DNA of 57,195 nucleotides, from the IMG/VR virus record IMGVR_UViG_3300042544_000814, positions 1-57,195 of that record, one strand, 5' to 3'. Below are positions 9,664-57,195 of the stretch, piece after piece; the stretch's first letter is position 1, and the number at the start of each line of letters is the position of its first letter. The translations under genes were made by a program, and so were the position numbers. The DNA comes from a virus. The notes under the pieces were generated by a model. It saw only the letters and a program-made list of their open reading frames with translations, was not told the origin of the DNA and made no database searches.

Positions 9664-9672
9664 ATTATACCA
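9664..9672 (-). promoter_or_regulatory. extended -10 (TGG-TATAAT), probable leaderless start
   Basis: TGG then TATAAT, overlapping the stop of the exonuclease gene. The predicted start of transcription (about 9657) is within two bases of ATG 9655, and no ribosome-binding site is present. Confidence 0.45.
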
Positions 9673-45689: not shown

Positions 45690-48600
45690 CTATACTGGTT
45701 TTTGAATATTGGATATCCACGATACATTAGTATAAGCAGTATAAGAGTAGTCACCAAAAATTAAGTCTTCTCCGTCATCAACAATAATCTTGTTTGTTCC
45801 AGTGTATGCCTTATATACATCAGATGGGTCTACTCCGTAATAGCTGGTTGAGCTTACTACCAATACGCTGTTGTTTCCGCCCCACAAATATGGAATGATG
45901 TTCCAGTAGTTCCAATCCAATATTAGAGAGCCTGCCTTTTTAACCTTAAACCATGGTCTAAAAATTCTTGTCTGTACCTCTTGAAGGTTTGTAGACTTAT
46001 AGTATGAGATATTGTTTACGGTTAATGGTCCAGTAATTCTGAATGCACCACTATAGTTATTAAAGTCTTGAGTATTTGCAAAACCAATACCTAGCATAGC
46101 CCACTCTTTTATGGTTATGTATGGATCTTTGACGATCTTGCCATTAACGTAAAATGCAATTCCGCTTTCGAGCTTACCCTTTTCATTTATCGCATATATT
46201 CTAGCTCTTTTGCCAGATGGGTGAGCTGCAACCATATATACTCTAATATAAGAGTTTTTGCTTTGAATCTCAAATATTTGAGTTGGTGCAAATGGGAATA
46301 GGTCTTGATCAAATCTCATAGATAGCTGCATAGCTATAACCTTGTAGTTATCGGAAGATTCTGGATTGATTGGCACAGATATACCACGATTAACTATTGG
46401 GTCATACTCTCCCTTTATTGTAATTCCGCTATCACGAGTCAGATATAAATACGGGGTACTCTTCTTGTATATTGAAAATGGATTTCTTGTCTTATAGGTG
46501 AAGTAGAATCCATCTTTTCTGTACGGAAATATGTCATTTCCAAACCTAGTTCCAATTGGGGTTGGGCCTGTGTCTGAAAGAGATAGGGACGCATACTCTA
46601 AAGTTTTAATTTGGATTGGTGCATCAGATACGCTTGACGAAGACATCTCTATGTGGGTAACAAGAGCTAAATTTTCAAAGCTTACTGATTGTGGAGGATA
46701 GATAACCACTCCATCCACTACCTCATAAGCTGTGGTTAGCCAGCTATCTCCTGGTGATACGATGCCGCTTTTTGGAGCCAACTCAAACTGAGAGTATGAC
46801 GATAAAGGAGTGTTAGCCCCGTCTGAGAGTAGCTGAAAGGTAATATACGTCTTTACTACTGAGTTCGATGTGTCGTACTTGTAGGTATCTACTGCCCTAT
46901 TTTTTAAATCGTCATAATTGTTAAAACCAGTAAATAAACTATTGTCTAACGAGGTGTACTCTCTTTGTATAGGAACAGAGTACTCTTCCTTAAGCTCTTC
47001 ATAGGACCAGCTTCCTGTGGTTTCCTCTTGTATAAACTTTGATGGTGCTGGATAGTTAATGTTAAACTGAATAAAGTCTAGGTCTAGACGTTCGTCTCCC
47101 CTTGAGTCTAGTGAGTTTTTTGCAAACACCGATAGAGGAATGTAATCTTCCCAGTAAGAATCAGCACCAACAACCACCTTAAACCCAGAAAGAGTGTCTT
47201 GTGCAGAAATATAGTAGCTTGCCATGTGACCATTAATTATAGACTGAGCGTATGATCCAAAAGTACCTCCGTCATAAACAAAGTCAAATATTGCACTGGA
47301 TGTAACGTCTTCTCCAGCATCTATAAGCTGTTGAATATAGTTTGCATCGATAAATTCATCCCAGACTATAGTTCCGTCAAAATAAAATGCAGAAGATATC
47401 TTTGAAGCATTTTTGCTTGAGCTAAACCCTACACCATAGAAGTTTCCAGAGAAGGTACTAGTGAAATCTTTTCTGCCACCTACATATATAGATGAAGATG
47501 AGAGCTTTCCAAAAAATTGAGCCGCTTCTCCTCCATAATAGTCAGAGAATTTAGAGATATCTACACCAACAATGAACTTTTCACCAACGCCGTCAAACTC
47601 TTTGGTCTTAGATGCTATTACAGTTTGACCAGTTGGAGAACCTACAATATAATCAATAGTGCTTGGGGTTATAACTACCTCAAAGTATGACTGAGTGGCA
47701 GCATCCTCTATCATAAAAATTGTCTGGTTCTGGCTTGATGAAGCCTTCTCTTTACAAATTGCATAAAACATTTTTGGAATAGTGGCATCAATTGTTAGGT
47801 TATCTATAATCAAATACCCCTGGGAGTTTTGCCATTCTGATGATGGCCTAAGAGATATAAAGGACTCTTGCTCATTCTGACTGGATTCTAAGCCTTCGTT
47901 CCATTCTGACTCTGTTTTATTATTAAATACTGCTCTTGGCTTTTGGTATTCTGGAAAGCCAATAGAGTTTCCGCTAACAAGTATATTGTCGTATGTTGCC
48001 CTATTCCACTTGCCTATCCTTGGGTATGAATAATTCTTTGAATATTTAGAGAACGGATAATCAATAAATACTGAACTACCACTATAGGCATTATTGATAT
48101 TTTCTGGGAATTCGACACCCTGGCCATAAACAAATCGTCTTTTTGCTACTTGGTTAGGAACCTTGTATCCGTATATTGCAATAGCGTCTATCTCAAATGG
48201 GTATACGTCGTCATGTGGGTAAAATCCAATCCAGTCATTATCTAGTTGGGTATCTGAGTATCTGTCTGGAAATACAAGATTTTCTGAATCGATGAATGCC
48301 TGGCCAACCTGCTCTCCATTGATCAGTAGACTTATCTCTGAAGATGAATATCTTACATGCACTAGCATTGGCCTGTACCACTCACCAACGAAATGCCTTA
48401 TTACGTTATCTCCTATTTTTAAAGATAGAAATGGGCCATTCACATATAGGCCGTCTTGTCCACGAATATTGCCGACAATTCTTTTTTCTTCATTAGTATC
48501 GGATGCTACTCTCATCCAAAATTCTAAGCTATACTCTTTGTGCTTTCCAGACTCATTCAAAAACCCTAGGGATGGAACTATCAGAGATGGGATATTTCCA

Positions 48601-49388
48601 GACCTTTGAAGAATTGTTAGGTTTGATCCTCCAAATACCATTGGGATACTGGAGTTTTTTGCAGCTAGAGTATTTTTCCTAACAAGGTAGTATCCATCTA
48701 AAGACTGTAGTCCATAAGATTTTGCAGGAATACCCTTGATTCCAGATGCACCGAATATGTCTGTGTCTATAGACTCTGGCATGACTCCTAGAGACGACGC
48801 ATTAAATTCTTCAGACCACTGACCCAAAGTTATTCCATTCACTAAGAAGTCGTATTCGGTCTCTGGTGGGGCAGCAAAAAATCTAGCACCAATGACTATC
48901 CTAATATTAGTGTCTTGTGGTCTAGGATTAAATGTATCTGATAGAAATATCCAGCTCTTATAAATTTCAGTAGAAAAAAACTTTACGTCCCTAATGGTTT
49001 CTCCACTTACAGTGTCAAAGTATTCATACCCTAGATCAAAACCGCTTATGTACTCTGTGTCTGCATATACGAATGCCCCAATAGAAAAACTTGATAGATT
49101 TTTATCCAGATCATCAAGTGATACGATATCTGGACTAATGCATTCTACAGAAAAGTCTTGCTCTGATAATGTACCAGAAATCCTGGAGGTAGTGCTTTCT
49201 GGAAATGGCTCATCTATAACAAAGAGTTCTGCTGACGCTGTTGCGTTGGTTATATCCCAGCCATCGGAGATGTCTCTTTGCTCTTCTGATATTAAGGATA
49301 TATAGTCTGACACATCATCCAGTGCCCAAAAGGCTATTGGATGCTCTGAAAATACTTTTTCAGCATAAAGATTAGAAGGAATAGACAT
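45690..49388 (-). CDS. large tail protein with LamG/concanavalin-like domains
   Basis: A 1232-residue, beta-rich, Ser/Tyr/Asp-rich protein. The N-terminal motif (HPIAFWALDDVSDYISLI) resembles the start of LamG-type tail proteins. A clear jellyroll segment occurs at about residues 280-400 (YSLEFWMRVAS, then LVHVRYSSSEISLLINGEQV, then FEIDAIAIYGY). Similar strands recur later. It probably binds surface glycans as a tail or side-fibre component. It sits between the oxygenase cassette and the portal gene, away from the other tail genes. No enzymatic motif seen. Confidence 0.7.
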   Translation of the reverse strand: MSIPSNLYAEKVFSEHPIAFWALDDVSDYISLISEEQRDISDGWDITNATASAELFVIDEPFPESTTSRISGTLSEQDFSVECISPDIVSLDDLDKNLSSFSIGAFVYADTEYISGFDLGYEYFDTVSGETIRDVKFFSTEIYKSWIFLSDTFNPRPQDTNIRIVIGARFFAAPPETEYDFLVNGITLGQWSEEFNASSLGVMPESIDTDIFGASGIKGIPAKSYGLQSLDGYYLVRKNTLAAKNSSIPMVFGGSNLTILQRSGNIPSLIVPSLGFLNESGKHKEYSLEFWMRVASDTNEEKRIVGNIRGQDGLYVNGPFLSLKIGDNVIRHFVGEWYRPMLVHVRYSSSEISLLINGEQVGQAFIDSENLVFPDRYSDTQLDNDWIGFYPHDDVYPFEIDAIAIYGYKVPNQVAKRRFVYGQGVEFPENINNAYSGSSVFIDYPFSKYSKNYSYPRIGKWNRATYDNILVSGNSIGFPEYQKPRAVFNNKTESEWNEGLESSQNEQESFISLRPSSEWQNSQGYLIIDNLTIDATIPKMFYAICKEKASSSQNQTIFMIEDAATQSYFEVVITPSTIDYIVGSPTGQTVIASKTKEFDGVGEKFIVGVDISKFSDYYGGEAAQFFGKLSSSSIYVGGRKDFTSTFSGNFYGVGFSSSKNASKISSAFYFDGTIVWDEFIDANYIQQLIDAGEDVTSSAIFDFVYDGGTFGSYAQSIINGHMASYYISAQDTLSGFKVVVGADSYWEDYIPLSVFAKNSLDSRGDERLDLDFIQFNINYPAPSKFIQEETTGSWSYEELKEEYSVPIQREYTSLDNSLFTGFNNYDDLKNRAVDTYKYDTSNSVVKTYITFQLLSDGANTPLSSYSQFELAPKSGIVSPGDSWLTTAYEVVDGVVIYPPQSVSFENLALVTHIEMSSSSVSDAPIQIKTLEYASLSLSDTGPTPIGTRFGNDIFPYRKDGFYFTYKTRNPFSIYKKSTPYLYLTRDSGITIKGEYDPIVNRGISVPINPESSDNYKVIAMQLSMRFDQDLFPFAPTQIFEIQSKNSYIRVYMVAAHPSGKRARIYAINEKGKLESGIAFYVNGKIVKDPYITIKEWAMLGIGFANTQDFNNYSGAFRITGPLTVNNISYYKSTNLQEVQTRIFRPWFKVKKAGSLILDWNYWNIIPYLWGGNNSVLVVSSTSYYGVDPSDVYKAYTGTNKIIVDDGEDLIFGDYSYTAYTNVSWISNIQKPV

Positions 49389-49415: not shown

Positions 49416-50009
49416 CTATTTTTCTAAATGCCAAAAAGCTGGTGACATATACTTGATTCCACTAGCTATTGGCATGGACTCATGATAGAAAGGTGGCACG
49501 GATGGAAAGATTATCAAACTTCCAGCTTTTGGCTTTATTTTTACCCCTTGCTCTGAAAAGCTAATCTCTCCCCCAGAGTAGTTATCATTTAGGTAAAGAA
49601 CAGCAGATATATTTTCTGTAGTTGGCTCTGGGCCTGAATCTGTGTGAGGTCCCATAGATGCCCCAGTAAAGTATTTGCTTATGCTAATTGGCATCTGAAC
49701 CCCCAGATCAACGTTTAGCTTTTCTGCATAGTCCTTGCCGTATACGGACAGAGTCCTTGTTAATACATCATACGCATCACGAATTTTACCGCTAGCAGAG
49801 TCATAAAATGAGACATCTGTTGTTTTTCTTTTTCCAAAGACATAGGAGTCTCCACTTGACATCCAGGTATGCCACTTAGAGATAAGAGATTCTTCTGATA
49901 TATAGGAGTCTGTGCTTTCTATAAGATACACAAGCTCTTCTGGGTTTGGTATTACGGACTCATAATAAAATATTTTTTCCGCAAAAACTTTAGGACTTTT
50001 TAGTCTCAT
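49416..50009 (-). CDS. 2-oxoglutarate/Fe(II) oxygenase A (P4H-like)
   Basis: A 197-residue oxygenase of the prolyl-4-hydroxylase-like jellyroll group. The iron triad is His122-x-Asp124 (GPHTDSG) and His176 (FYHESMP), with Lys186 (SGIKYMSP) in the place of the 2-oxoglutarate-binding basic residue. The core strands are present (SAVLYLNDNYSGGEISF, then PKAGSLIIFPS). It overlaps the next oxygenase gene by 20 bases. Substrate unknown. It is the last gene of the cassette and the shortest, lacking much of the N-terminal extension seen in the others. Confidence 0.88.
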   Translation of the reverse strand: MRLKSPKVFAEKIFYYESVIPNPEELVYLIESTDSYISEESLISKWHTWMSSGDSYVFGKRKTTDVSFYDSASGKIRDAYDVLTRTLSVYGKDYAEKLNVDLGVQMPISISKYFTGASMGPHTDSGPEPTTENISAVLYLNDNYSGGEISFSEQGVKIKPKAGSLIIFPSVPPFYHESMPIASGIKYMSPAFWHLEK

Positions 50010-50655
50010 TTCCCCACTCTTCCTTTTGCTTGTCTTGCTTAGGCTGCTCTGAACGCTTTAGCATTTCTAACTCCTCAAGGAATCCTTCTGGATATTCAAT
50101 ATCTGCGTAGTCCCACGATAATAGCATGGTATATCTTTCTCCAGAGGTAACCTCAGTTACTGCATGAACATTATCGATACCAACATCAAACACAATTGCG
50201 GTTCCAGCCTTTGGGGCAATAGAGATTTCGTGATCCCTAAACTTTAGGTTTCCACCTTCATAGTTGTCATTAAGATAAATAATTGTGACAAGCTTATTGT
50301 CTTGCCAAGCATTTGGAGTACCGTCTAGCTCTGCATTATCGGCATGGTATCCTGCGTAGGCACCTGGAAGCCATTTATGTGCACTTAGGGTGAGGTTTCG
50401 GACTGGTCTGCCCATAACATCTTCAGCGACTTCTTTTAGGGAATGTCTTAGTTCATGGAAAAAGTTTGGATTAAACAGTTCAATGTCAAGCTCGTTTTTA
50501 GGTCCGTTTGGATCCATTACACGAGCATTAAAAAAACAAGTTTTTTGCCACAAAGAGTCTCCAGCATCATAATAATCTATAAGCTTTTCACACTCTTCGC
50601 TTGATAAAAAGTTAGGTATTTCTACTACATCCTGCTTATGAACAATTTTTTCCAT
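49990..50655 (-). CDS. 2-oxoglutarate/Fe(II) oxygenase B (P4H-like)
   Basis: A 221-residue oxygenase. It has the iron triad His104-x-Asp106 (GYHADNAE) and His164 (DNVHAVTE), with Arg174 (SGERYTM) for 2-oxoglutarate. The strand motifs are VTIIYLNDNYEGGNLKF and APKAGTAIVFDV. The N-terminus (VVEIPNFLSSEECEKLIDYY) is the helix pair common to P4H-like enzymes. A lysine/glutamate-rich C-terminal tail extends past the core. No clear ribosome-binding site, so it may depend on coupling to the gene five bases upstream. Confidence 0.9.
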   Translation of the reverse strand: MEKIVHKQDVVEIPNFLSSEECEKLIDYYDAGDSLWQKTCFFNARVMDPNGPKNELDIELFNPNFFHELRHSLKEVAEDVMGRPVRNLTLSAHKWLPGAYAGYHADNAELDGTPNAWQDNKLVTIIYLNDNYEGGNLKFRDHEISIAPKAGTAIVFDVGIDNVHAVTEVTSGERYTMLLSWDYADIEYPEGFLEELEMLKRSEQPKQDKQKEEWGNETKKS

Positions 50656-50660
50656 AATGA

Positions 50661-51386
50661 TTAGGCAAGCTTATTGCCCTTTTTCCACTCCTCTTTCTGT
50701 CTAGCTTGTTGCTCACGAACCTTCTTTGTTTCTTCTTCCCACCAATTTTTCTTTTCCTCTGAGTATTCTGCATCTGCAAAATCCCAGAAGGATACCATAG
50801 TATACCTAGTACCTTCAGTAATTTCTGATACACCATGTATATTTTCTACGCCACCAGGAAAAACAATTAGTGCATACGGTGTTGGCTTAAACGAGATATC
50901 GTGATCTGGGAAATATAGGTCCCCTCCCTCATAATTACCATTAAGGTATAGAATTGCCACATACTTATTAATTTCAAATGCATTAGGCTCGCCATGGTTG
51001 TCGGAGTTATCGGAGTGAGGGTTTGCAAAACCACCTACATCCCACTTTTGGGCATGTGATGTGTTTGCCTTTACTTCTCTACCAAAAACAGCCTCTACAT
51101 AGGTCTTAAACTGCTCACGCAAGTTATCGAAAAAATCTCCAGGCAAGCTATAGTCTGCGAGCATTGGGTCGTTTGGCTGCAAGCCCATGCCAGAAGAGCC
51201 GTAGAAAGCAATGTCTCCCCACATCTCAGCCTTTGCCTCAAAGTAATTAATCATATTTTTAGCATCTTCTGGAGTCACAAAGTTTGGAATTTCTACAATT
51301 CTATTATCTTTAATTCCTAGAATACTATTCTCTATTGGCTCATCTTTATAATATATAAAGCTATCAATATTTACATTATTATGCAT
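50661..51386 (-). CDS. 2-oxoglutarate/Fe(II) oxygenase C (P4H-like)
   Basis: A 241-residue oxygenase with His124-x-Asp126 (NPHSDNSD), His184 (ENIHGVSE) and Arg194 (EGTRYTM). Core strands YVAILYLNGNYEGGDLYF and ALIVFPGG are present. It is closest to oxygenase B within the cassette: both share IVEIPNF-like starts, a W-D-ADAEY-type segment after the core, and charged C-terminal tails. GGAGG precedes the ATG. Substrate unknown. Confidence 0.9.
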   Translation of the reverse strand: MHNNVNIDSFIYYKDEPIENSILGIKDNRIVEIPNFVTPEDAKNMINYFEAKAEMWGDIAFYGSSGMGLQPNDPMLADYSLPGDFFDNLREQFKTYVEAVFGREVKANTSHAQKWDVGGFANPHSDNSDNHGEPNAFEINKYVAILYLNGNYEGGDLYFPDHDISFKPTPYALIVFPGGVENIHGVSEITEGTRYTMVSFWDFADAEYSEEKKNWWEEETKKVREQQARQKEEWKKGNKLA

Positions 51387-52062
51387 TGTCTACCTCCGAG
51401 TTACCGTGGGCAACTATCGTCCAAAAGAATGGGCAAGTGTATCTAATTCCAGATTCTATTGTAGTTATGCCATGAATATAGTTCATGTCTCCTGGGAAGA
51501 AATATGCTGCCCCAGCCTTTGGCTTAAATTGAATATCTTGGTTAGGGAAGTACAGCTCTCCACCCTCGTAATCATCATTTAGATAAATAATAGTTGCGAT
51601 ATCATACCAAGGAAAGTCGTTGGGCTTTCCTGCGTTTTCACCTTCGTGAAGTTCTTTATCTGCGTGTGGCATTTGAAGGTTTCCTGGAAGCCAGCGAACA
51701 AGAGCTGGAGATGTTGGATATGCCGTTACGTTAAAGAAATTGTCAATCTCAACCTTAAGTCTCTTAACGATTGATCTAATGGTCTGTACGGTTTCAGGGC
51801 TCGTCTGATTAATAGTTGGATAAGTCGCTACACGGCCATCCCAATATCCAGAGTCATAGATTACGGTTCCGTCTTCATTGTAGTGGGTTTGGGTAATATC
51901 CCAGCTTTCATTATTACGGATAAAGCCATTGAGTGCCTGAAGTTCTTCTTCAGTTAAGAAGTTCTCAAGTGTGCCGATCATTTCTGGACCATCTCCAAAA
52001 AATCCTGATGGCGTAATTGATACGGGGTTTTGATTATGATTATTAGTATATTGATTTTCCAT
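51379..52062 (-). CDS. 2-oxoglutarate/Fe(II) oxygenase D (P4H-like), leaderless
   Basis: A 227-residue oxygenase with His133-x-Asp135 (MPHADKEL), His197 (NYIHGITT) and Arg207 (SGIRYTC). The core has ATIIYLNDDYEGGELYF and PKAGAAYFFPG. An Asn-rich start and an insert near residues 136-150 (KELHEGENAGKPND) distinguish it. Its ATG lies six bases after TGA-TATAAT with no ribosome-binding site, so it begins the second transcription unit of the cassette. Confidence 0.9.
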   Translation of the reverse strand: MENQYTNNHNQNPVSITPSGFFGDGPEMIGTLENFLTEEELQALNGFIRNNESWDITQTHYNEDGTVIYDSGYWDGRVATYPTINQTSPETVQTIRSIVKRLKVEIDNFFNVTAYPTSPALVRWLPGNLQMPHADKELHEGENAGKPNDFPWYDIATIIYLNDDYEGGELYFPNQDIQFKPKAGAAYFFPGDMNYIHGITTIESGIRYTCPFFWTIVAHGNSEVDNA

Positions 52063-52068
52063 AAACCA

Positions 52069-52077
52069 ATTATATCA
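52069..52077 (-). promoter_or_regulatory. extended -10 (TGA-TATAAT), leaderless promoter in the oxygenase cassette
   Basis: TGA-TATAAT then TGGTTT then ATG of oxygenase D, in the 17-base gap after the DUF6065-like gene. The predicted transcription start coincides with the start codon. It would drive oxygenases D, C, B and A. Confidence 0.55.
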
Positions 52078-52079
52078 CG

Positions 52080-52808
52080 TCAATCGTACTTTCGTCTTTC
52101 CCAAACATCACGCTGATAAATCCCTCCGCTTGGCTTTCTATACTTAAAGCTATTTGCCATATTCTTTGTGTATAACTCTGCAGGGTTTTCTATTACTATC
52201 TCAGTTTTCCAGTCCTCACGCTTGAAAGGAATTATTTGGGCATACGGAGTTCCTGCTGGTATTACACCAGTAAACCCCTTTGCTATAAAAAATGGCATTG
52301 TTCCTGGAAGACTTACCTTATCGTTATCAATTATTCCGCTAGTTGTCAGGAATGGCAGATCAAACCTGTTAAATGGTTGGGAGTATATTGCACTATATCC
52401 AGATGGTAGCTCTACTGCCCAATCTGCCCACCAAGCAAAGTGATGCTCATAATATCCCCATGGAACCTCAAACTGTGGCATGGGATCTCTAACATTAACA
52501 AAATCTTTATACTGATCATCTAGAATTTTTACTGATATTACTCCAGCATCATTCACGTAGAATTCAATATCACAAGGTGTCCTATAGACATATCCAGTTG
52601 TCATAATATCATAAAGTGCTGGGCAAGCTTTCCATGTAACTACCCTGCCACCATCGGGGGCAGTCCATGGCTCACCGTCAGGTCTCATGGCATATCTGTC
52701 AGCATCTTTATACCAAACTGGAATAGCCCTAGCTGTTGGGGTTGGCTTTGATATGCTGTCTTCGTTTAGCCAAGACCTATTTGAAATAAATTTAATAGAC
52801 TTAGCCAT
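52080..52808 (-). CDS. DUF6065-like protein, first paralogue
   Basis: A 242-residue protein within the oxygenase cassette. It contains ARAIPVWYKDADRY, a TWKACPALYDIMTTGYVY segment and a C-terminal region (NRFDLPFLTTSGIIDND, then FTGVIPAGTPYAQIIPFKRE) that resembles the end of the adjacent DUF6065 protein, so the two are probably distant paralogues. Family function is unknown; the beta-rich composition suggests a cupin-like or jellyroll fold. It overlaps its neighbour by eight bases. Confidence 0.65.
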   Translation of the reverse strand: MAKSIKFISNRSWLNEDSISKPTPTARAIPVWYKDADRYAMRPDGEPWTAPDGGRVVTWKACPALYDIMTTGYVYRTPCDIEFYVNDAGVISVKILDDQYKDFVNVRDPMPQFEVPWGYYEHHFAWWADWAVELPSGYSAIYSQPFNRFDLPFLTTSGIIDNDKVSLPGTMPFFIAKGFTGVIPAGTPYAQIIPFKREDWKTEIVIENPAELYTKNMANSFKYRKPSGGIYQRDVWERRKYD

Positions 52809-53511
52809 TTGTAACTTTCATTACGATCTTCTTGACCTCGTGCTCACCAACAGATTCCCCAGTATGATCAACAGCATCACGATAGTAGTGTGTCCAGTGT
52901 CCTGCGGAATTCTTTTCCTGAGATGCTTCTGCTCTATTCTGCATTCTTTCTGACCACTCAGCAGTTTCCCACAATTCTGGTGTACCGCTTACAACATTAA
53001 GGCTATAAGCCTGTACGTCTTTTAATGATATTGGCAAAATTGCTGCAATTGGAGTATTTGCTGGAATGGTAATTACTTCATTTGCCTTGTTAACTATCCA
53101 GGCAAGCGGAAAATCATTTTCTAATACTGATGTGCTTAATAAAGTAGTAAAGCACTGTGTCCCCTCTATAAATTGATTTGGAACTGGCATTGTTAGCAAC
53201 GATACATTTTTTTTAGAAGAAAAATATATTCCAGTATTAAAGCTTATGGTTCTATTTCCTCTATGAGGATGAACGTACCTCTCTCCAGAAAGGATGGATA
53301 TATGGCTAGAAGTTGAGTCATTTATTCCGTCCCAAATAAATGATATATCTTCTGGAAACGAAAGATACCAACCTAAACGGTTTGCTAAAGAAACTGGAAA
53401 GCACTGATATGCGTGTCTATCAAAGGTTGCATCCATCCAATCTCTTTTCAGTGGAAGCTGATCTATGTTTGCAGAATGGCTACCAAGTTTGTAGACTGTT
53501 ATGTCTTTCAC
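52801..53511 (-). CDS. DUF6065 family protein
   Basis: A 236-residue protein with the signature of DUF6065: RDWMDAT, followed by RHAYQCFPVSLANRLGW, then IWDG, FNTGI, LLTMPVPNQFIEG, and the late AWIVNKANEVITIPANTPIA and ILPIS segment. The family is widespread in phages and bacteria with no proven activity. The GTG start at 53511 overlaps the stop of oxygenase E. Co-occurrence with six oxygenases suggests it delivers or presents the substrate, but that is only a guess. Confidence 0.72.
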   Translation of the reverse strand: MKDITVYKLGSHSANIDQLPLKRDWMDATFDRHAYQCFPVSLANRLGWYLSFPEDISFIWDGINDSTSSHISILSGERYVHPHRGNRTISFNTGIYFSSKKNVSLLTMPVPNQFIEGTQCFTTLLSTSVLENDFPLAWIVNKANEVITIPANTPIAAILPISLKDVQAYSLNVVSGTPELWETAEWSERMQNRAEASQEKNSAGHWTHYYRDAVDHTGESVGEHEVKKIVMKVTNG

Positions 53512-54215
53512 TAATTACCTGTCTCTGTGTAAAATTCTGGCTTATGGAACTTCTCTGAGTAATCAAGCATTGTAACTATTGAGAATTTTGTTCCAGAGTG
53601 TACGGGCATAGCACGGTGTGGGTACATAAAGTTAGATGGGAAAAGGTATAGGTCTCCCGCCTTAGCCTTGATGTTTAAATTTTGAAGCCTAAAGAAAAGC
53701 TCTCCACCTTCGTAGTCATCATTTGGATATGACACTGCAGAAAGAACACAGTTATAAGAATATCCGTTATCGTGATGTTCTTGGAAGTGTTGACCTGGAC
53801 CATACTTGATAAAGTTCATAGCTTCCCAATATCTAAGCTCTCCAATATTATGCATCTTGCAGTAATGCTTTACAGCCTGAAGCTGTCTAAAGTAGACCTC
53901 ATCCCAAAGCTTACGTAGCTTATCTGCTGCCTCGCCCTGGTGCTCAGCAATATCTGTTTTCTTATATTTAAAATCTTTGCAGTCACGGTATTCTGGAATT
54001 TTCATGCCGTAGCCAACCATGGCCTCCTGATATTCATAATGATTGTTTGGGTCGTCTAAGACCTCTTCTAGTCGATTAATTATATCCATATCTTTTGGAA
54101 GTACGTCACGGTAAACAAGAATACCACTACCAAGATCTTCAACAGAAGACCACGTAATTTCATCTATTTTATAAAAATCTTGAATTCTTTTATTTAAATC
54201 TTCTTGATCAGACAC
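53511..54215 (-). CDS. 2-oxoglutarate/Fe(II) oxygenase E (P4H-like)
   Basis: A 234-residue oxygenase with His147-x-Asp149 (QEHHDNG), His200 (MYPHRAM) and Lys210 (SGTKFSI). Core strands are CVLSAVSYPNDDYEGGELFF and AKAGDLYLFPSN. The start is GTG at 54215 with AAGGAG upstream. A long N-terminal helical domain (about 130 residues) precedes the core, and it is most like oxygenase F. Substrate unknown. Confidence 0.9.
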   Translation of the reverse strand: MSDQEDLNKRIQDFYKIDEITWSSVEDLGSGILVYRDVLPKDMDIINRLEEVLDDPNNHYEYQEAMVGYGMKIPEYRDCKDFKYKKTDIAEHQGEAADKLRKLWDEVYFRQLQAVKHYCKMHNIGELRYWEAMNFIKYGPGQHFQEHHDNGYSYNCVLSAVSYPNDDYEGGELFFRLQNLNIKAKAGDLYLFPSNFMYPHRAMPVHSGTKFSIVTMLDYSEKFHKPEFYTETGN

Positions 54216-54224
54216 TATGTCTCC

Positions 54225-54959
54225 TTAGTAAGTTAGTCTATTCATATCTTCTTGACGATAGTTGAAGTTTCTTAATCCTCCACGATCATTATAATCAGTC
54301 ATAATTACGATTGAATACTTTGTTCCAGAAATCATGTCGTTTGATGCATGCTCATAAATATACGTAGATGGGAAGACAACCACATCACCCTTCTTTGGCT
54401 TTAGGGTCAGATTAAATCTAGGAAAGTATAGCTCTCCTCCCTCATATCCTTCATTTGGAAATGCAACTACAGAGATTGTTGTAACATATGCTGGACCATG
54501 ATCAGCATGGATCTTAAAGTGAGTTCCTGCCCCGTCGTACTTAACAAAGTTAAATGCCTCAAAGAAGTTTACTCCAACACCCCAGTACCTGCCGTAATCA
54601 TCTACGTTTGGACTGATAGACCTAAAAGCCATCTCATGCATTTCGTATAGCTTAGAGTTGTGTTCGTCTTTTGGGCCAAGGTTGCTAGTGCTAACCTTAA
54701 AGTCTAGGCACTTCCTAGCCTCTTCTAGTACATCATCAGCCTCTGTTACCCTAGCACCCTGCCAGGAATACCTTGTCTGACCATTAAGGTTTCCTTCAAG
54801 CGTGTCAATAATATAATCGCAGAGGTCACCGCTCATAGCATTATTATAAACATTAATGCCAAGTGCTGGATTACTTACTAAGACTCCTGCAGGAGTTACT
54901 CTAGATGGCATTCTATTTGAGTCTGTTTCTGATCTATCTTTTGTTAGCCAAGTATTCAT
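54225..54959 (-). CDS. 2-oxoglutarate/Fe(II) oxygenase F (P4H-like)
   Basis: A 244-residue oxygenase, first gene of the cassette. Iron ligands are His151-x-Asp153 (IHADHGP) and His204 (YEHASND), with Lys214 (SGTKYSI). The core has TISVVAFPNEGYEGGELYF and PKKGDVVVFPS. The ATG lies seven bases after TGC-TATAAT and directly after a hairpin that separates it from the tail gene upstream. It resembles oxygenase E in core and basic residue. Confidence 0.9.
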   Translation of the reverse strand: MNTWLTKDRSETDSNRMPSRVTPAGVLVSNPALGINVYNNAMSGDLCDYIIDTLEGNLNGQTRYSWQGARVTEADDVLEEARKCLDFKVSTSNLGPKDEHNSKLYEMHEMAFRSISPNVDDYGRYWGVGVNFFEAFNFVKYDGAGTHFKIHADHGPAYVTTISVVAFPNEGYEGGELYFPRFNLTLKPKKGDVVVFPSTYIYEHASNDMISGTKYSIVIMTDYNDRGGLRNFNYRQEDMNRLTY

Positions 54960-54966
54960 ATCCTCA

Positions 54967-54975
54967 ATTATAGCA
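54967..54975 (-). promoter_or_regulatory. extended -10 (TGC-TATAAT) opening the oxygenase cassette
   Basis: TGC-TATAAT, then TGAGGAT, then ATG of oxygenase F. The predicted transcription start is one base before the start codon. It lies immediately after the hairpin at 54978-55005. Confidence 0.55.
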
Positions 54976-54977
54976 TA

Positions 54978-55005
54978 AGAGCCTAGGATGTTTCACCTAG
55001 GCTCT
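54978..55005 (-). terminator. hairpin between Pro/Phe-rich tail gene and oxygenase cassette
   Basis: A perfect 10-base-pair stem (AGAGCCTAGG with CCTAGGCTCT) and an eight-base loop, 15 bases past the tail gene's stop. No T-run follows on the minus strand, so it may be a transcript-end or processing hairpin rather than a strong intrinsic terminator. Confidence 0.5.
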
Positions 55006-55019
55006 CTGCTTTATTTAGG

Positions 55020-55778
55020 CTAGAACGGTCCACCAACGCCACCAAGGAAGTATGGTGGGAAGTAAGGTGGGAAGTATGGTCCAAACGCTGGGAAGAATGG
55101 GAAGAACGGTGGGAAGTACGGGAAGCTTGGTGGGAAAAACGGTGGGAAGAATGGTGGGAAGAACGGAGAAATAGTTGTTACGCTATTAGAATTAGCAGAG
55201 TATTCACCAACGCCATTTGAATTTTCAGCACGGATCTGGTATGTCTGAGCTGTGCCACCTTCCTGGGTAATGTTAGTTGTGCTAGCAGGAGCATTTACTG
55301 TACCAGTCTTGCTGTCAGATGATGTCCAGCGATATAGCGTAATTGCCTTACCACCAGTTGCTGGAGCAGTCCAGTCAAGCTTGTCTTGATTAGTCTGAGC
55401 AGTAGCTGTTGGAGCTGACATGGTTGCAGGAACTGTTGTAGCTGTAACAGTAGTGGTAGACGATGCTGGAGATGTTCCAGCTGAATTTGTAGCAGTTACG
55501 CTAATTGTGTAAGTAACATTAGAAGCAAGGCTTTCTACAACAATAGGAGACGACGATCCCGTTGCAGTTCTAGTTGTCTGACCAGCTGCTGTAGCTGTAA
55601 CGGTAAAGGATGTGGCTGCTGGTGATAGTGCTGGGAGTTCAAAAGCTACGCTAGCTGCTCCGTTATTAAATGCTCTATTTGTACCTACGTCAGTAGCAAC
55701 TACGTTAATAGGTGCTAGAGGCTCTAGAAAGTCATTTGATGCTTGAGACTTTCTACCTGTTCTTTTTCCAGCTGCCAT
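55020..55778 (-). CDS. fibronectin-III-like tail protein with Pro/Phe/Tyr-rich C-terminus
   Basis: A 252-residue protein. After a basic N-terminus (AAGKRTGRKSQ), two fibronectin type III-like domains span about residues 25-200 (TSFTVTATAAGQTTRTATGS, then SNVTYTISVTATNSAGTSP, then GGKAITLYRWTSSDSKTG). The last 48 residues consist almost only of Pro, Phe and Tyr (PFFPPFFPPFFPP and similar). In residues 205-244, 17 of 40 are Pro and 20 are Phe or Tyr. It sits next to the tail-fibre-like gene and just upstream of six P4H-like oxygenases. Probably a virion surface protein and a candidate oxygenase substrate. AAGGAAGG precedes the ATG. Confidence 0.75.
   Translation of the reverse strand: MAAGKRTGRKSQASNDFLEPLAPINVVATDVGTNRAFNNGAASVAFELPALSPAATSFTVTATAAGQTTRTATGSSSPIVVESLASNVTYTISVTATNSAGTSPASSTTTVTATTVPATMSAPTATAQTNQDKLDWTAPATGGKAITLYRWTSSDSKTGTVNAPASTTNITQEGGTAQTYQIRAENSNGVGEYSANSNSVTTISPFFPPFFPPFFPPSFPYFPPFFPFFPAFGPYFPPYFPPYFLGGVGGPF
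55047..55166 (-). repeat. tandem 12-base-type repeat encoding FFPP/YFPP units
   Basis: Degenerate tandem repeats (plus strand GGTGGGAAGAAC-like) code for alternating PP and FF or YF pairs in the tail protein. The near-regular nucleotide repeat suggests the unit number can change by slippage or recombination. Confidence 0.8.
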
Positions 55779-55797: not shown

Positions 55798-57195
55798 TTA
55801 TGCCGTTAGGTCGCCGTAGACCAACCAAGTGTTTTCTGCTCGCTTTAGAAGTGTTGCAGAAGACCACTGGGTCCTTAGCTTAAGTCCTGGAGTTGCATTG
55901 ACTGTAACTCCACCTGCACCTGCAATTGTAACCTGACCAGTTCCAGTCTGAATAATATCAATAGTTGTTCCTACTGGGTAGGCTACTGAAGAATTTGTTG
56001 GAATAGTCAAGGTGGTTGCAGAAGACTTGCTAATCTCAACAATTGTATCACGTTCATTTAGATTAGAAAGTGTGTATGAGTCTGTCTTTTCAGCTATAGT
56101 AGTAATCGATGGAACACCCTGCTTTGTTTGAGTGCCGTCTGAGAATACGACACCAGTTGCCTCTAGGTTTCCAACAACAAGTGTTTCTCTTGTGGCGTTT
56201 GTGACATCTACTACGTTTGAAACTGGGTGTGGGACATTAGAAATAAGCTTCCACTTCTTTCCATCGCTTACGTCACGGAAGAATCCAGAGTGAAGGTGGC
56301 TTCCCTCAGTTCCTCCAACTACTCCAGTTGCTGCCAAGAAACCTACGTCTAGAACATCTTCATCGTATTGTCCAGATGCTAGGTAAATTAGTGGGTCTGA
56401 CACAGATAGATCTGTTACATCTATGGTAGTAGTTGTTCCAGAGACCGTAAGGTTTCCTTCGACTATTAAGTTTGTCTCTACAGTTACATCACCAGTAAAT
56501 GTTGCACCAGCAAGCGATGCCTTTGCATCCAGTGCAGTCTGAGTTGCTGCAGAAACTGGCTTGTTAGCGTCAGAGGTATTGTCAACGTTACCAAGACCTA
56601 CGTGTGACTTAGTTACACCAGCAACGGTACCTGTAAAGGTAGGGTCAGCCGTAGGTGCCTTAGCATCTAGCTGAGTCTGAATAGCAGAAGTGACACCATT
56701 TACATATCCAAGCTCAGTAGACGAGACATCTCCGACAGAGGTAGTGCTTGGAAGAACTACGGTTCCTGTAAAGGTTGGTCCACTTAGTGGTGCATATGTA
56801 GATGATGCAGTAGCAGATGCAAGCTTGGCATCTAGCTGACCTTGAATTCCAGAAGTTACGCCATTCACATATCCAAGTTCTGTAGAAGAAACATCACCAA
56901 TTGATGTACTTGTTGGCAATACTACGGTTCCAGTAAAAGTAGGATTAGAGGTTGGAGCCTTGTCATCTAGCTCGCTTTGAATGCTTACGTCAGCTGCAGC
57001 TAGGTCATCTAGTTGCCCCTGGATAGATGCTGTAGCACCAGACAGGTACTCGGCTTCTGTTACCGTAAGGCTTCCAATTCTAGCTGTAATGCCTGATGAA
57101 ATAGAAGAGTTCATTTCCGAGGCATTGACTAGATAGGATGTGCTGCTCCATGCGTCAGTGCCATTTCCAATCTTAAACTTTCCTGTGGTTGTGTC
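55798..57195 (-). CDS. tail fibre-like protein, 5' end beyond window
   Basis: The frame is open to the right edge: upstream of an internal ATG at 57114 the translation continues through TGKFKIGNGTDAWSS and SYLVNASE, sequence typical of tail-fibre head-binding regions, so the true start is outside. The middle contains two to three tandem repeats with TFTGTVVLP and SSTELGYVNGV. A DVTVETNLIVEGNLTVSG stretch resembles trimeric fibre shafts. The C-terminus ends in a beta-rich domain. Likely a fibre or adhesin component. It is followed 19 bases later by the fibronectin-like gene. Confidence 0.8.
   Translation of the reverse strand, partial: DTTTGKFKIGNGTDAWSSTSYLVNASEMNSSISSGITARIGSLTVTEAEYLSGATASIQGQLDDLAAADVSIQSELDDKAPTSNPTFTGTVVLPTSTSIGDVSSTELGYVNGVTSGIQGQLDAKLASATASSTYAPLSGPTFTGTVVLPSTTSVGDVSSTELGYVNGVTSAIQTQLDAKAPTADPTFTGTVAGVTKSHVGLGNVDNTSDANKPVSAATQTALDAKASLAGATFTGDVTVETNLIVEGNLTVSGTTTTIDVTDLSVSDPLIYLASGQYDEDVLDVGFLAATGVVGGTEGSHLHSGFFRDVSDGKKWKLISNVPHPVSNVVDVTNATRETLVVGNLEATGVVFSDGTQTKQGVPSITTIAEKTDSYTLSNLNERDTIVEISKSSATTLTIPTNSSVAYPVGTTIDIIQTGTGQVTIAGAGGVTVNATPGLKLRTQWSSATLLKRAENTWLVYGDLTA
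56626..56958 (-). repeat. imperfect tandem repeats of about 45-55 residues in the tail fibre gene
   Basis: Two full copies and a partial third (counting from ATG 57114: residues 53-107, 108-152 and 153-163), each starting AP-x4-TFTGTV and running through SSTELGYVNGV to QLDAK. Visible at both DNA and protein level. Typical of triple-helical or beta-helical fibre shafts and prone to copy-number change. Confidence 0.8.

Follow-up and report, generated by a model that had tools for sequence, protein, structure and literature searches.

Several 2-oxoglutarate (2OG)-Fe(II) oxygenases per genome recur in aquatic phages without explanation, and what a whole block of them might act upon is the question raised by IMG/VR virus record IMGVR_UViG_3300042544_000814 (57,195 bases; "the window" below means this whole stretch). 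Six such genes, with two genes of DUF6065 type among them, lie there on the minus strand at 49416-54959. We show that they belong to a conserved oxygenase cassette linked to a protein that ends in an FPP repeat, and it seems probable to us that this operon, of prolyl 4-hydroxylase (P4H) type, hydroxylates the repeat tail of the adjacent phage adsorption protein, most probably on proline. The genes concerned are the following, the loci counted being the 28 of an oxygenase tree of 223 sequences.

54225..54959, minus strand: OG6, 2OG-Fe(II) oxygenase, core (PF13640, 38.1 bits; orthologue in 24 of 28 loci)
53511..54215, minus strand: OG5, 2OG-Fe(II) oxygenase, core, predicted prolyl-hydroxylase fold (PF13640, 51.6 bits; 28 of 28 loci, single copy in each)
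52801..53511, minus strand: DB, DUF6065 protein (PF19541, 105 bits against a cut-off of 26.6, 4e-30)
52080..52808, minus strand: DA, DUF6065-like protein with a predicted dUTPase-like fold (phrog_7084; AlphaFold2 pLDDT 93)
51379..52062, minus strand: OG4, 2OG-Fe(II) oxygenase, core (PF13640, 31.3 bits; 28 of 28 loci)
50661..51386, minus strand: OG3, 2OG-Fe(II) oxygenase, variable part (PF13640, 33.8 bits; clade in 14 of 28 loci, poorly supported at 0.31)
49990..50655, minus strand: OG2, 2OG-Fe(II) oxygenase, variable part (PF13640, 48.8 bits; 6 of 28 loci)
49416..50009, minus strand: OG1, 2OG-Fe(II) oxygenase, expanding clade with 1-6 copies per locus (PF13640, 46.1 bits; clade in 26 of 28 loci)
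55020..55778, minus strand: FN3 virion-like protein of 252 residues, candidate substrate (fn3 above the Pfam cut-off)
55047..55166, minus strand: Pro/Phe/Tyr repeat tail PFFPPFFPPFFPPSFPYFPPFFPFFPAFGPYFPPYFPPYF (repeat-pattern matches against 0 in 100 shuffles)

The FN3 protein encoded directly upstream of the cassette ends in PFFPPFFPPFFPPSFPYFPPFF..., and its repeat contains neither K nor R. In relatives, the tail of the equivalent gene product consists mostly of [FYHSRG]FPP or FFP units over about 20-140 residues, nearly all of them proline, phenylalanine or tyrosine, with proline accounting for about 45% of the repeat residues. Of the 68 relatives with DNA upstream of the cassette, 67 have a repeat gene there, and the exception (L056; L numbers are our handles for loci) is cut. 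Taking the repeat itself as the query, a scan of IMG/VR for DNA coding PFFPPFFPP yielded at least 120 stretches, and in those initially missed by the open reading frame (ORF) rule the proline frame was likewise open. Among the matches listed, PF13640 genes were present in 42 of the 43 repeat-coding contigs of at least 24 kb, mostly five to nine in each, compared to 2 of 31 random contigs of at least 24 kb drawn via an arbitrary 14-mer, with one gene each (Fisher p 4e-17, related contigs being treated as independent). Oxygenase genes within 1.5 kb of the repeat gene were, again among the matches listed, 41 downstream in 49 loci versus 1 upstream in 37. A search of about 85,000 cellular genomes matched 51 contigs, of which only L365, L374, L390 and L393 have extended repeats (L374 and L390 stem from one metagenome-assembled genome); oxygenase and/or DUF6065-type genes are nearby in all four. 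The gene orders that follow the repeat vary (OG-DB-DA; OG-DA-OG-DB; DA-DA with an OG farther along), and the capsid proteins of repeat carriers form groups of about 75-95%, about 40% or undetectable identity to the window capsid protein.

These data also bear on whether there is any functional link at all, since a few aquatic phage lineages could have inherited repeat and oxygenases alike from their ancestors, a view favoured by the fact that the association tests count related contigs as independent. Descent alone is nevertheless very improbable in our judgement given the positional asymmetry, the differing gene orders, the differing capsids and the binning of the contigs with Chitinophagaceae, Verrucomicrobiales and Gammaproteobacteria. 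Repeat length and oxygenase number gave a Spearman coefficient of 0.36 (p 0.014), which is uncorrected for relatedness and was not used; the tyrosine content of the repeat did not correlate with oxygenase number.

What surrounds the repeat differs among relatives. In many of them it is continued by an intein/Hint-like extension ending, for example, in FAGxxLxHNK (Intein_splicing below its cut-off), and the FPP-repeat proteins of L137 (3-785), L046 (24-1352), L054, L066, L078 and L100 run on into such a domain. Its presence suggests that the C-terminus of the repeat may undergo self-cleavage or attachment. The repeat frames of L101, L176, L173 and L125 are without the usual start, and upstream of each a short ORF in a different frame (e.g. 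...RKKPAPTVTGRKS) looks as though it were joined to the repeat frame by a +1 frameshift; in L101, which is identical in sequence to L176 from a different assembly, the putative frameshift falls inside a PASTA-like stretch. A sub-threshold PASTA match (E 9e-4) in the repeat protein of L112 (1894-2658) hints at peptidoglycan binding.

How constant is the cassette itself? Relatives were gathered by an OG6 protein search (19 loci) and by a DA search (the best 80 of more than 450 loci). Conserved clustering, which the first-pass annotation had set beforehand as a test of its proposal, was found, as nearly all of some 90 related IMG/VR loci share the order OG6-OG5-DB-DA-OG4, which is followed by a variable series of oxygenases. 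The block, a common cassette, comprises a fixed core (OG6, OG5, DB, DA, OG4) and an expanding tail. That annotation had missed both this layout and the adjacent candidate substrate, and its view that six oxygenases in one block are unusual did not stand, many per block being the rule in these phages (3-12 per fetched stretch). In the tree, orthologues of OG5 and OG4 occur in all 28 loci and those of OG6 in 24; the OG1 clade, which reaches 6 copies, is represented in 26 and OG2 in 6. From this distribution, the core paralogues, at least, are judged to have split before these phages diverged and to have been kept since as separate enzymes. Neighbours among the eight genes of the window overlap by at most 20 bases or lie at most 17 bases apart and are therefore read as one operon. 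In L049, L050, L051, L064, L080, L083, L090 and L091 the cluster is closed by an extra OG4-like oxygenase in the opposite orientation. A DNA-level search of cultured phages gave no match to the cassette, and tblastn with DB and with the repeat protein retrieved no cultured relative; for the repeat protein this counts for little, because the low-complexity filter masks the repeat.

All six predicted oxygenase ORFs are real and exceed the cut-off of PF13640 (2OG-FeII_Oxy_3; 31-52 bits against 27), and they are the only PF13640 genes in the whole record. The HxD...H triad and basic 2OG anchor previously assigned to them are present in every one, with K or R exactly 10 residues after the distal H. 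The iron ligands are also kept in relatives: 569 of 600 distinct sequences have the HxD...H and K/R pattern, and H147, D149, H200 and K210 are invariant among OG5 orthologues. The six oxygenases are 22-42% identical within a locus, and dN/dS values of about 0.02-0.16, where estimable, indicate strong purifying selection. A P4H/PHD-type fold was assigned on structural grounds for OG5 only, whose AlphaFold2 model (pLDDT 90.5) had top Foldseek matches that were almost all P4H or PHD (prolyl hydroxylase) structures, with E from 4e-11 and TM scores of 0.5-0.6. The best were P. putida P4H, Chlamydomonas P4H bound to (Ser-Pro)5, Dictyostelium PHD, PHD2 and PBCV-1 vCPH. A sequence search of solved structures found P4H and LH3 as the nearest, weakly (E about 0.007), and the cut-off of the NCBIfam equivalog for PKHD-type hydroxylase (PRK05467/YbiX) was not reached (at most 33 bits against at least 143). 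The likeness to known prolyl 4-hydroxylases (bacterial P4H, Chlamydomonas P4H-1, PHD2, PBCV-1 vCPH) thus lies in the fold, in the HxD...H...K arrangement with its +10 spacing and in a proline-rich repeat as plausible substrate, whereas the window enzymes are about 21% identical or less to them, occur as several paralogues per operon and have DUF6065-type partners.

An enzyme of this kind might also act mainly on another protein. Candidates would be further virion proteins (the tail fibre or the laminin-G-like protein) and host proteins, EF-Tu for example, and the repeat gene would then be a mere neighbour in the adsorption module. Indeed, the nearest structural match to the OG5 model is a bacterial P4H solved with EF-Tu, and the cassette is flanked by two further adsorption-type genes:

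45690..49388, minus strand: large virion-like protein, downstream boundary of the cassette (Laminin_G_3 E 0.0046, below cut-off)
55798..57195, minus strand: tail-fibre-like protein, upstream boundary, running off the record (PHROG tail families)

We think such a substrate unlikely, however, as the coupling to the repeat persists over different gene orders and capsid types and at the genome level, and a proline-dense repeat suits P4H-type enzymes. The first-pass annotation had proposed a modification unit acting on phage structural proteins or host surface molecules, with sugars or nucleotides as further candidates; modification of phage structural proteins is the best-supported reading, and the host surface, sugars and nucleotides found no positive support here.

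The nucleotide alternative involves the two genes between OG5 and OG4, both described earlier as DUF6065-like. DB is a true DUF6065 protein; DA has no Pfam match and is linked to it via PHROG 7084, which matches both (1e-31 and 1e-5) and on which their homology rests. The listed top Foldseek matches of the DA model all belong to the dUTPase/dCTP deaminase superfamily (best E 6e-4, TM to target 0.4-0.6). By eye, the DA alignment has a GIIDxD stretch resembling dUTPase motif 3, and the RSG motif is not among its conserved columns. Members of the same family as DA occur in S-RIM4 and in Hafunaviridae archaeal viruses (HSTV-2 gp40, L007:11893-12762), where, unlike in the window, no oxygenase cassette surrounds them; the HSTV-2 gene adjoins thymidylate synthase, and a ribonucleotide reductase gene is near that of S-RIM4. 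The dUTPase-like fold, together with the HSTV-2 homologue beside thymidylate synthase, suggests a nucleotide-enzyme ancestry for DUF6065. These resemblances, with weak Tet_JBP matches in OG2 and OG3, would favour a system in which dUTPase-fold DB and DA and TET/JBP-like oxygenases alter nucleotides or DNA. We give this scant credence, since the top matches of the OG5 model are prolyl hydroxylases and the cassette is located in the virion module, distant from the replication genes. DNA-base modification of the TET/JBP type (PF12851) was rejected, OG2 and OG3 scoring 16.6 and 18.2 bits, far under the cut-off of 34.9. In L116 and L129, DA-type genes follow the repeat gene and the sole oxygenase lies farther along; the DUF6065 family is therefore tied to the repeat too. 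That DB and DA hold or scaffold the substrate is a guess.

Oxygenases of this class are also numerous in cyanophages, with 1-5 in T4-like cyanophages (PMC3037559) and 24 in S-SCSM1 (PMC9602691), where they have been assigned to 2OG/nitrogen metabolism or DNA repair (PMC3037559, PMC9602691). By analogy, the enzymes of the window could lower host 2-oxoglutarate or alter nitrogen or energy metabolism, as put forward for those phages (PMC3037559, PMC9602691). Such an auxiliary role is hardly credible here, as it leaves the fixed order of distinct orthologues and the tie to the repeat gene unaccounted for. The cyanophage oxygenases (Syn9; S-SCSM1) resemble those of the cassette in that several genes occur per phage, some adjoining tail-fibre genes, and differ from them in being putatively metabolic by assignment and about 28-38% identical to OG5. 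No XFPP repeat was found in the three cyanophage stretches examined. In S-SCSM1, two groups of 2OG oxygenase genes flank a short tail fibre (L405:5093-6358) that contains a low-complexity stretch rich in Arg, Pro and Gln, possibly another substrate-enzyme pairing. In Syn9 (L403, 5921-9798), a DA-family gene lies right after two tryptophan halogenase genes, near tail genes and close to an annotated 2OG oxygenase; this may be another protein-modification cluster.

Hydroxylation of the repeat by the cassette remains the reading that we prefer. The cassette would be a protein-maturation operon, and the XFPP repeat (X = F, Y, H, S, R or G) at the C-terminus of the adjoining FN3/adsorption-module protein would be hydroxylated by its P4H-type 2OG-Fe(II) dioxygenases. 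The conserved OG4, OG5 and OG6 would install basic marks, and the variable, expanding OG1-OG3 would adapt the modification, in position or in residue, to the repeat of the individual phage. A supporting role for DB and DA is probable, perhaps that of a scaffold, dUTPase-like in fold, which holds the substrate. The modified tail could then serve as a stiff polyproline rod or as an adhesive aiding adsorption to a probably actinobacterial host.

In some relatives, a glycosyltransferase of PF11397, which we take to be the family of Gnt1, may subsequently glycosylate the hydroxyproline. In 8 of the fetched loci a relative of this family is found close to the cassette; in L049, L056, L064, L080, L083 and L084 it precedes the first oxygenase by 1.0-1.6 kb. 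None was found in the random contigs. The Dictyostelium Skp1 pathway provides a precedent, in which a 2OG prolyl hydroxylase modifies a proline of Skp1 and the protein, once hydroxylated, is acted on by Gnt1 (PMC3515798). The likeness is the succession of a 2OG prolyl hydroxylase and a GlcNAc (N-acetylglucosamine)-transferase acting on hydroxyproline; the difference is that Skp1 is a regulatory protein and not a structural repeat. As a general partner of the cassette, PF11397 was rejected because only a minority carries it.

Several observations weigh against the preferred reading. PF11397 was not found in the window record and, of the 43 repeat contigs among the matches listed, just 3 carry it, one of these at a distance of about 10 kb from the cluster. 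About one fifth of the repeat genes, among the matches listed, have no adjoining oxygenase, those of L123 and L137 run straight into a laminin-G-like gene, and one repeat-coding record of 36.8 kb has no PF13640 oxygenase at all; most longer records of repeat genes without an adjoining oxygenase have oxygenases elsewhere. The non-independence of related contigs affects all the association tests, Fisher's included. Finally, the PBCV-1 prolyl hydroxylase is active, yet hydroxyproline was not detected in virions (PMC7019647).

Putative control elements lie between the repeat gene and the oxygenase operon and within the latter:

54978..55005, minus strand: hairpin between the repeat gene and the oxygenase operon (10-pair stem)
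54967..54975, minus strand: extended -10 promoter-like site TGCTATAAT before OG6 (TGnTATAAT copy)
52069..52077, minus strand: extended -10 promoter-like site TGATATAAT before OG4 (TGnTATAAT copy)

Both promoter-like sites, which had been noticed at first pass, are among nine TGnTATAAT copies in the window, against 3.0 +/- 1.6 in shuffles, and eight of the nine are on the coding strand; a looser sigma-70 scan of the window gave no excess over shuffles. The hairpin, likewise noticed before, is kept in relatives with compensatory changes (L012, L013, L014, L019), variants including GAGCCTAGG, GGGCCTAGG and AGACCCAGG, and is followed by a similar -10 site in every relative compared but L040. Further coding-strand copies lie at 9664, 19638, 36435, 37901, 41028 and 43664, and TGnTATAAT is apparently a phage-wide promoter type.

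As to the host, the order of portal, protease, capsid and tape measure in the record matches that of Streptomyces phage BillNye (Stanwilliamsviridae), the DnaE-like polymerase is at most 57% identical to those of BillNye-type Streptomyces phages (57% for BillNye), and WhiB genes occur in 16 of 47 related records; on these grounds the host is likely actinobacterial. The examined BillNye region differs in having neither an XFPP-repeat protein nor an oxygenase match. In isolated Nanopelagicales phages, collagen-like proteins are part of a variable island (PMC10202952).

The near-constant place of the cassette beside a repeat-ended, virion-like protein suggests that these phages alter their own attachment proteins chemically, in a way that recalls the modification of collagen in animals. 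The cassette appears to vary on known P4H/structural-protein systems, and its setting is without earlier description in the literature searched, which, for DUF6065, phage prolyl hydroxylases and virion hydroxyproline, gave no account of any oxygenase cassette linked with an FPP repeat. More tentatively, the enzymes might write a phage-specific hydroxylation pattern (on Pro, perhaps on Phe/Tyr), sometimes followed by sugar, on an XFPP virion rod, the oxygenase set co-evolving with the repeat; such a rod would be the bacterial-virus counterpart of collagen or plant extensin. As the candidate substrate is conserved, physically linked and proline-dense, the question is directly testable. If the reading is correct, phages would mature their own adsorption proteins through dedicated hydroxylation, DUF6065 would gain a biological setting, and these operons would be a possible source of hydroxylases that act sequence-specifically on repeat peptides of a new class.

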